From: Acidobacteriota bacterium
GTDB lineage: Bacteria; Acidobacteriota; Terriglobia; Acidiferrales; UBA7541
Direction: 5' to 3'
NCBI GenBank assembly: GCA_013289825.1
Contig: JABCZF010000011.1
Location: 1-64,000 of the forward strand
DNA: 64,000 bases
This document shows positions 6,326-52,585 of this stretch, piece after piece; position 1 is the first letter of the stretch, and each line of letters opens with the position of its first letter. The translations under genes and the position numbers were made by a program. The notes beneath the pieces are model-generated. The model was not told the origin of the DNA. It worked only from the letters and a program-made list of their open reading frames with translations, and did not search any database.

Positions 6326-6766
6326 TCACTGATCTTTTTCCAGATACTCGTCCGGGACGTCGTCTTCCGGGACTTCGTGCGTCCTTACCTCGCCTTCATC
6401 AGCATCGGGAACGTCTTCGATGCCTTTAACGATTTCCGCCTCCAAGGCGTTTCCTTCTTCGAGCAATTCGTCCACGCTCTCTGAATCCGCGCCCGCGCGG
6501 TTTGACAAACCTTGCAGATCCCCGGACTGGCCGCCCGAGTTCGCGCCCAGACCCTTGGGCTCGAACACGATTGTGTCGCCACCCTCGCTCTTGCCGCGGG
6601 ATTTGGCTTTCTTGAGTGGTGCCTTCTTTTTTGCAGCAGCCTTTCTGACCGCGGCGGCTTTGTTGGCAGGCGCAGGTTTTTTCGCCGTCTTTCGCCGGGG
6701 CGCCGCTTTCCGACTCAGGGCTTTCTTGGGTTTGATCTGCTTTTTCTTTTTGTTCTTCGTGGCCAT
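6326..6766 (-). CDS. Bipartite lysine-rich / acidic protein of unknown function
   Basis: I do not recognise a named family. The first 60 residues are almost all Lys, Ala, Pro and Arg (KKKKQIKPKKALSRKAAP, KKAKSRGKSEGG), resembling histone H1-like tails of bacterial nucleoid proteins. The remainder is acidic (SVDELLEEGNALEAEIVKG, DEGEVRTHEVPEDDVPDEYL). The two halves are oppositely charged and could fold back on each other, or the tail could bind nucleic acid while the acidic part binds a partner. There is no signal peptide, so a cytoplasmic location is inferred. The DNA-binding suggestion comes from composition only. A frame on the other strand (6420-6785) is a shadow. Confidence 0.65.
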   Translation of the reverse strand: MATKNKKKKQIKPKKALSRKAAPRRKTAKKPAPANKAAAVRKAAAKKKAPLKKAKSRGKSEGGDTIVFEPKGLGANSGGQSGDLQGLSNRAGADSESVDELLEEGNALEAEIVKGIEDVPDADEGEVRTHEVPEDDVPDEYLEKDQ

Positions 6767-6898
6767 GCCTGGAGTCTATCACTGACGCCACCTAGCGCGC
6801 ATTTCTTCCCGCGGGCTGAGGTGGAAGTGGCGCAGCTTGCAAAGCAGGGTGACAACCTCTAGTCTGCTTGGGTTTGCGCTAAGGAAAGGGCCCATCAC

Positions 6899-51899: not shown

Positions 51900-52253
51900 C
51901 TAGCTCAGCAACTTCCTGAAAGCCTCTTCGTCGTAGCCAAGAACAATTTGGTCGCCACGAATGACAACCGGCCGACGGATCAGATTGGGCACTTTCGCCA
52001 TCAACTTGATGGCTTCCGGCCTCGTCGGCGGCTTCTCTTTCATATTTCTCGCTCTGTACAGTTCATTGCGTGGGTTTAGAAAATGTTCGTAGTCGCGAGA
52101 GGCGATTAGCTTGTCGAGTTCGGCTTCGCTCAAGCGTTCTTTGTCCAAGTCGCGAGTGTCAAGTTCGGCGCCATGCTCGAGCAAGAAACTTCTTGCTTTG
52201 CGGCAAGTCGTTCAAGTTGGTTTCTCAAGAAACCGCAATTTCACTTTCTTCAT
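51900..52253 (-). CDS. ArsC/Spx-like thioredoxin-fold protein with in-frame TGA (candidate selenoprotein)
   Basis: From ATG 52253 (GAGAG upstream) the frame reads MKKVKLRFLEKPT, then TGA, then TTCRKARSFLLEHG and on without interruption to TAG at 51900. The length is 117 residues if TGA is decoded, the normal size of ArsC/Spx/YffB proteins. The family has Cys at this position (PSCTSCRKA in Spx), so TGA replaces the catalytic Cys and would give a UxxC motif with Cys17. RRPVVIRGDQIVLGYDEEAF is the conserved C-terminal part with the cis-Pro. A candidate SECIS hairpin follows at 52180-52197. The track sees only a headless fragment from a TTG at 52184. It lies 8 bp after the rhodanese gene. The alternative is a Cys-to-stop nonsense mutation or a sequencing error. 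Confidence 0.7.
52180..52197 (-). promoter_or_regulatory. Candidate bacterial SECIS element
   Basis: The RNA AGCAAGAAGUUUCUUGCU is a perfect inverted repeat whose tip is A-G-U-U when seven pairs form. It begins 14 nt after the TGA, with the loop about 22-25 nt from it. The consensus for bacterial SECIS elements asks for a short stem, a small loop with G near its start, and a loop 16-37 nt from UGA; this hairpin fits. Confidence 0.5.
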
Positions 52254-52261
52254 TTGCTCTC

Positions 52262-52585
52262 TCAATACCGCGGTACCTGCGGATCGACCTCCACCGACCA
52301 GCGTTCGATGCCGCCGGCCATGGATTTTGCACTCTCGACGCCTTGCTGCCGCAGCCACACCGCGGCATCTAGGCTGCGCATCCCGTGATGGCAATAGCAA
52401 ATCACTTCGTCAGCTTCGAGCAACGTATTCAGGTTCGCCGGCAGCGTGCCGAGAGGGATCAACTTTGCGCCTGGAATCTTCGCAAGGTCATACTCCCACT
52501 GCTCACGCACATCGATCAGCAACAGTTTGTCGCCGCGCCCGACGCGTTCGTTTACTTCCTTCGCCGAGATCTGCATATCATCCAT
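52262..52585 (-). CDS. Rhodanese-like sulfurtransferase
   Basis: This 107-residue single-domain rhodanese has the typical start ISAKEVNERVGRGDKLLLID and the active-site loop CYCHHGMRSLDAAVWL, in which the Cys of YCHHGMRS carries the persulfide. The C-terminal MAGGIERW is also standard. The family moves sulfur, and some members can handle selenium, as persulfide or perselenide. It is encoded eight bases ahead of the ArsC-like gene, in the same operon. Confidence 0.92.
   Translation of the reverse strand: MDDMQISAKEVNERVGRGDKLLLIDVREQWEYDLAKIPGAKLIPLGTLPANLNTLLEADEVICYCHHGMRSLDAAVWLRQQGVESAKSMAGGIERWSVEVDPQVPRY

Follow-up and report, generated by a model that had tools for sequence, protein, structure and literature searches.

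A predicted bacterial SECIS hairpin downstream of an in-frame UGA in an ArsC/Spx-like gene of Acidobacteriota

The 64,000-nucleotide stretch of Acidobacteriota bacterium DNA analysed here (contig JABCZF010000011.1, positions 1 to 64,000; hereafter the window) carries, on its minus strand, a gene for a small protein of the ArsC/Spx fold (51900..52253) with an in-frame UGA as codon 14, and shortly after this codon a hairpin (52180..52197). By taking into account the comparisons with homologous sequences described below, the hairpin is interpreted as a bacterial selenocysteine insertion sequence (SECIS) that would direct incorporation of selenocysteine (Sec) at codon 14, with an estimated probability of about 0.96. 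The mechanism is a known one, well supported here, and not a new one. Once the minus strand has been transcribed, SelB, loaded with Sec-tRNA-Sec, would bind the A-G-U-U tip of the hairpin, which starts 21 nt past the UGA, and would supply the ribosome with selenocysteine for codon 14, so that translation would continue rather than terminate and would yield a 117-residue ArsC/Spx-fold protein with a UxxC motif.

Gene and predicted hairpin

The reading frame starts with the ATG at 52253, reads MKKVKLRFLEKPT-UGA-TTCRKARSFLLEHGAELD... and ends with the stop codon at 51900-51902, encoding 117 residues, with the motif KPT-Sec-TTC-RKAR, if the UGA is read through. The UGA (52212..52214, minus strand) sits where the CxxC motif of Spx proteins has its first Cys, and the same CxxC position is aligned with the putative Sec14 in the homologues. 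The Sec and Cys of the UxxC motif probably work together as a selenol/thiol redox pair. Comparison of the window gene with a Cys-containing homologue of conserved synteny (L019) yielded, after the UGA, a dN of 0.20 and a dS of 1.26, values that point to purifying selection on the downstream coding sequence. Standard annotation would truncate the gene at 13 residues or start it downstream of the active site.

The hairpin corresponds to an 18-mer, AGCAAGAAGTTTCTTGCT, that occurs once in the window (minus strand, AGCAAGA-AGUU-UCUUGCU when read from 52197 to 52180) and starts exactly 14 nt after the TGA (52214-52212). Its arms can form 8 bp without a mismatch. The perfect inverted repeat and its distance from the TGA are thus as claimed in the original prediction, which did not state the strand. 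The predicted fold has 7 bp (AGCAAGA/UCUUGCU) and an AGUU tetraloop rather than 8 bp, because the 2-nt loop that would result is too tight; the eighth, innermost A-U pair is a compensated variant of the G-C pair of its clade. The tetraloop (52187..52190, minus strand) falls at nt 22-25 after the UGA, where the loop had been anticipated, and its G and U are invariant in 45 aligned UGA homologues with the hairpin in the same register. The published model of bacterial SECIS elements (bSECIS) calls for a loop of 3-9 nt, a stem of 4-16 bp, a G within the first two loop positions and a spacing of 16-37 nt (PMC13188914). With a 4-nt loop, a 7-bp stem, G at loop position 2 and 21 nt between UGA and loop, the window hairpin fits on all counts, in support of the initial assignment to the bacterial consensus.

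The 18-mer alone has a predicted folding energy of −7.4 kcal/mol (z = −2.9 with respect to dinucleotide shuffles, none of 200 being as stable), and values of −8.1 kcal/mol over nt 11-36 after the UGA and of −9.5 kcal/mol over 40 nt were obtained in context. The energy criterion for bacterial SECIS elements (minimum free energy of −7.5 kcal/mol or lower) is therefore passed narrowly in context, but not by the isolated 18-mer. An Rfam scan returned nothing above the threshold of any family.

Hairpins of the UGA and Cys homologues

A homologue was found in 68 of the 89 genomes sampled from the GTDB family-level group of the window organism (hereafter the family), with UGA at codon 14 in 41 of them and Cys in 27. 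Further UGA and Cys forms are present elsewhere in the phylum, and two additional UGA forms are found in metagenome-assembled genomes titled Deltaproteobacteria (placed in Myxococcota). Two of the UGA homologues (L142 in genome G363 and L164 in G365) contain a second in-frame stop codon (TAA and TAG, respectively) and are probably decaying copies or assembly errors.

The hairpins were compared across the phylum in 76 distinct UGA sequences and 42 Cys sequences. In 46 of the 76 UGA sequences a GU-tipped hairpin with a stem of 4 bp or more occupies the register seen in the window, and 13 more exhibit a second register (GCCAGGA-GUU-UCCUGGC and variants). In six more distant UGA homologues (L141, L163, L170, L171, L173, L176), representing acidobacterial families other than that of the window, hairpins such as GCAAGGC-GGUC-GCCUUGC place the loop 4 nt nearer the UGA, the tip being GGUC in five of the six; three sequences of one genus have a different, shifted hairpin, and in a few other UGA forms (e.g. 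L148, L158, L168, L172, L177) the hairpins are weaker or less certain. No GU-tipped hairpin was detected in any of the 42 Cys sequences. Any hairpin with a G in the loop and an energy of −5 kcal/mol or better is found in 66 of the 76 UGA sequences versus nine of the 42 Cys sequences, and within the family the mean hairpin energy is −8.4 for the Sec forms and −2.0 for the Cys forms. The original prediction had indicated that its assignment would be undermined by UGA homologues devoid of a hairpin or by retention of the hairpin in Cys homologues through codon constraint. Neither is observed, since most UGA sequences outside the common register have another G-in-loop hairpin and the GU-tipped one is confined to UGA forms.

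Compensatory changes, which had been proposed as a check, are present. In the alignment of the 45 same-register UGA sequences, 98.3% of the stem cells are paired, compared with 41-58% after sliding the partner by 1-3 columns, and only one of 500 shuffles gave a value as high. Three stem pairs show two-sided changes, namely the base pair (A-U/G-U/C-G), a middle pair (G-C/A-U) and the tip pair, the latter being G-C in 42 rows, G-U in two and A-U in one, which is the window itself. The window's tip-pair change consists of two amino-acid-changing substitutions (GGT CTC to AGT TTC; Gly to Ser and Leu to Phe) that keep the pairing. In the second register, too, three pairs change on both sides (9 cells). 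Kinship among the sequences inflates these counts, so that they lend support and are not proof.

Codon choice under the stem is also distinctive. In the UGA set AGA is used in 44 of 45 cases (expected, 0.04), GCA in 39 of 49 (0.06), GGT in 45 of 45 (0.14) and TTG in 46 of 50 (0.17); at the stem codons of the Cys homologues AGA is found in 0 of 18 cases and GCA in three of 28. Elsewhere in these genes the four codons are rare, but under the stem they are nearly the only ones chosen.

When the family genomes were searched with a pattern combining UGA and hairpin, nearly all zero-mismatch matches were the selenoprotein gene itself, and the one-mismatch matches elsewhere resemble noise. The only other zero-mismatch match outside the selenoprotein gene (G020:C12:30046-30079) is probably due to chance because it begins with TGATAA.

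Genes for selenocysteine synthesis and insertion

The genome to which the window belongs encodes SelB (354 bits, full length), SelA (554 bits) and SelD (350 bits), all scoring above cut-off. The gene for tRNA-Sec (selC; RF01852) was detected above cut-off in most family genomes, and all of the ten loci tested with ARAGORN were identified as tRNA-SeC with a TCA anticodon. A SelA match is present in all 41 UGA-carrying family genomes, and the seven homologue-carrying genomes that lack one (G057, G068, G081-G084, G086) all have the Cys form. The pattern is consistent but falls short of a strong independent test, as five of the seven belong to one genus. In one genome (G027) two tRNA-Sec genes lie close together (L125 4065-4163 and 7714-7812), and a further close pair is found in another (G009:C465:6472-6566 and 6731-6825).

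Alternative explanations

Several observations weigh against the assignment of the hairpin as a SECIS. Its stability is only moderate, and in wider windows of 40-76 nt the fold energy is unexceptional (z about −0.6 to 0), which makes it uninformative as a test. Nothing in the stem corresponds to U17, a bulged residue of importance in the SECIS of E. coli (PMC8659212). Finally, a search for selC in the organism's own, 86.6%-complete assembly was negative. In relatives of the window's genus selC adjoins the gene for an 828-residue protein, and neither this protein nor the DNA flanking selC in the relatives was found in the assembly when searched for. By taking into account the missing flanking gene and DNA, and the level of completeness, the lack of selC is best explained by an assembly gap, and tRNA-Sec is likely to be encoded by DNA that is missing from the assembly.

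The missing selC would also fit a scenario in which the UGA is an ordinary stop codon or a sequencing error, the gene a pseudogene and the hairpin a chance inverted repeat. In this respect, the original argument that a perfect 8-bp repeat is unlikely to arise here by chance stands for the position, but not for the repeat itself: the window contains 13 perfect 8-bp inverted repeats with spacers of 2-6 nt, five of them with a spacer of 2 nt, whereas among 20,000 synonymous recodings of the peptide drawn at random only six yield the perfect repeat. Since such repeats are common and the energy in the wider context is ordinary, the case for a SECIS rests mainly on the comparative evidence. The recurrence of UGA at this codon, in 41 family genomes and elsewhere in the phylum, the purifying selection downstream of it and the covariation of the hairpin make this scenario extremely improbable.

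The region also encodes the conserved CRKAR helix of the ArsC active site, and 103 of 4000 synonymous recodings fold as stably as the native sequence, so that the hairpin might be viewed as a side effect of constraint on the codons or the protein. This explanation is given hardly any weight, because Cys orthologues have the same helix without the hairpin, the stem makes almost exclusive use of rare codons, and the two amino acid changes at the inner pair of the window preserve pairing; furthermore, an ARGLL-type imprint is found in the Sec forms and is absent from most Cys forms. Read-through of the UGA by another route, such as near-cognate suppression, frameshift or re-initiation at the TTG at 52184, instead of Sec insertion, could be invoked on the grounds that recoding hairpins other than SECIS elements exist in general and that a TTG-started open reading frame (52184-51900) begins within the hairpin. 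It is considered very unlikely, since the residue found at this codon in homologues is Cys, and not Trp, Arg or Ser, SelA accompanies every UGA form in the family and is missing in seven Cys genomes, the tip obeys the SECIS rule, and re-initiation would lose the active-site residue.

Exchange between Sec and Cys

In close relatives the gene order, with names assigned by sequence recognition, is enoyl-CoA hydratase, rhodanese, selenoprotein gene, 3-hydroxyacyl-CoA dehydrogenase and macro-domain protein. That the same order surrounds Sec and Cys forms indicates that the two residues replace each other at a single locus. A tree built without the hairpin columns requires at least seven Sec/Cys changes, and in it the window forms a group together with two Cys sequences (98/91). 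The window hairpin has the same register as the common form, with which it shares 16 of 18 bases. In L019 (genome G032; Cys, same synteny), nt 15-32 after the Cys codon still encode the S-F-L-L residues while the stem is gone, and these residues are read as the imprint, at the level of the protein, of a SECIS since lost. That the window lineage regained Sec de novo, as could be suggested by its nearest relatives being Cys forms, is disfavoured by the common register, the 16 shared bases and the imprint in L019, and the preferred interpretation of these sequences is that Sec would have been retained in the window lineage and lost in its relatives.

A different situation is encountered in genus g11, whose Sec forms (L069, L091 and L096 in genomes G074, G078 and G079) are nested within a 19-row Cys clade (100/95) and have a hairpin of the GCUCGRC-RGUYC type shifted by 1 nt, with A...U, A...U and G...C, respectively, at the tip positions. 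Here Sec was likely regained from Cys and a SECIS built anew. A Cys-to-Sec change has been proposed for thiol oxidoreductases, ArsC-like proteins being among the families examined (PMC1794560). The published bacterial model includes a base pair around the loop G (PMC13188914). No paper on a tip base pair in a SelB-SECIS structure was found in the open literature, so that support for such a pair comes from the published loop rule and the covariation. We regard as evenly balanced the proposal that a single gene family has seen both the loss and the renewed formation of SECIS elements, with an R-G-U-Y tip recurring in several of them, and that the R/Y covariation (G...C or A...U) would support a pair across the two-nucleotide GU tip read by SelB. 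The orthologues, numerous in both Sec and Cys form and frequently in the same syntenic place, provide a natural data set on the constraint imposed by a SECIS on protein sequence, on its decay after a Sec-to-Cys change, and on the tip bases needed by SelB.

Relation to known proteins and elements

The window protein scores above the gathering score of Pfam ArsC (PF03960; 63.3 versus 24 bits). Its best sequence match is to the Spx/MgsR model (TIGR01617), with which it shares a nearly identical CTxCRKAR motif and a conserved RRP segment; its closest solved structures, as judged by comparison with the PDB, are also Spx proteins (E about 1e-12; B. subtilis Spx, 1z3e and 7f75). However, its score is marginally below the curated cut-off (74.1 versus 75.05 bits) and Sec replaces the first Cys. 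The Spx loop containing Gly52, a residue that matters for the contact with RNA polymerase, seems not to be conserved in the alignment. The ArsC family (seleno)protein model NF041106 (ArsC_rel_Se_1) has in common with the window protein the ArsC-like fold, the UxxC motif and the Sec/Cys exchange, but the score of the latter is far below its curated cut-off (35.9 versus 85 bits). With the TIGR00014-type model the score is 36.9 bits (cut-off, 106.05). To this type belongs the selenoprotein arsenate reductase from the Sargasso Sea set, also a COG1393/ArsC superfamily selenoprotein with a SECIS, which differs from the window protein in having UxxS rather than UxxC (PMC1088965, PMC13188914). On the basis of these scores, the window protein would represent an unnamed new subgroup of ArsC/Spx-like selenoproteins, a small-protein family of soil Acidobacteriota that falls under the cut-offs of the nearest curated NCBIfam models.

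With respect to the RNA element, the consensus tip of the window's clade, GGUC, is that of the SECIS of E. coli fdhF, whereas the tip of the window itself, AGUU, departs from it.

Gene neighbourhood

Upstream of the selenoprotein gene, 8 nt before its start codon, lies a gene for a single-domain rhodanese-like protein (52262..52585, minus strand). The order of rhodanese followed by selenoprotein gene is retained in most close relatives, with Sec or Cys alike, and the rhodanese-like protein may work with the selenoprotein in the transfer of sulfur or selenium.
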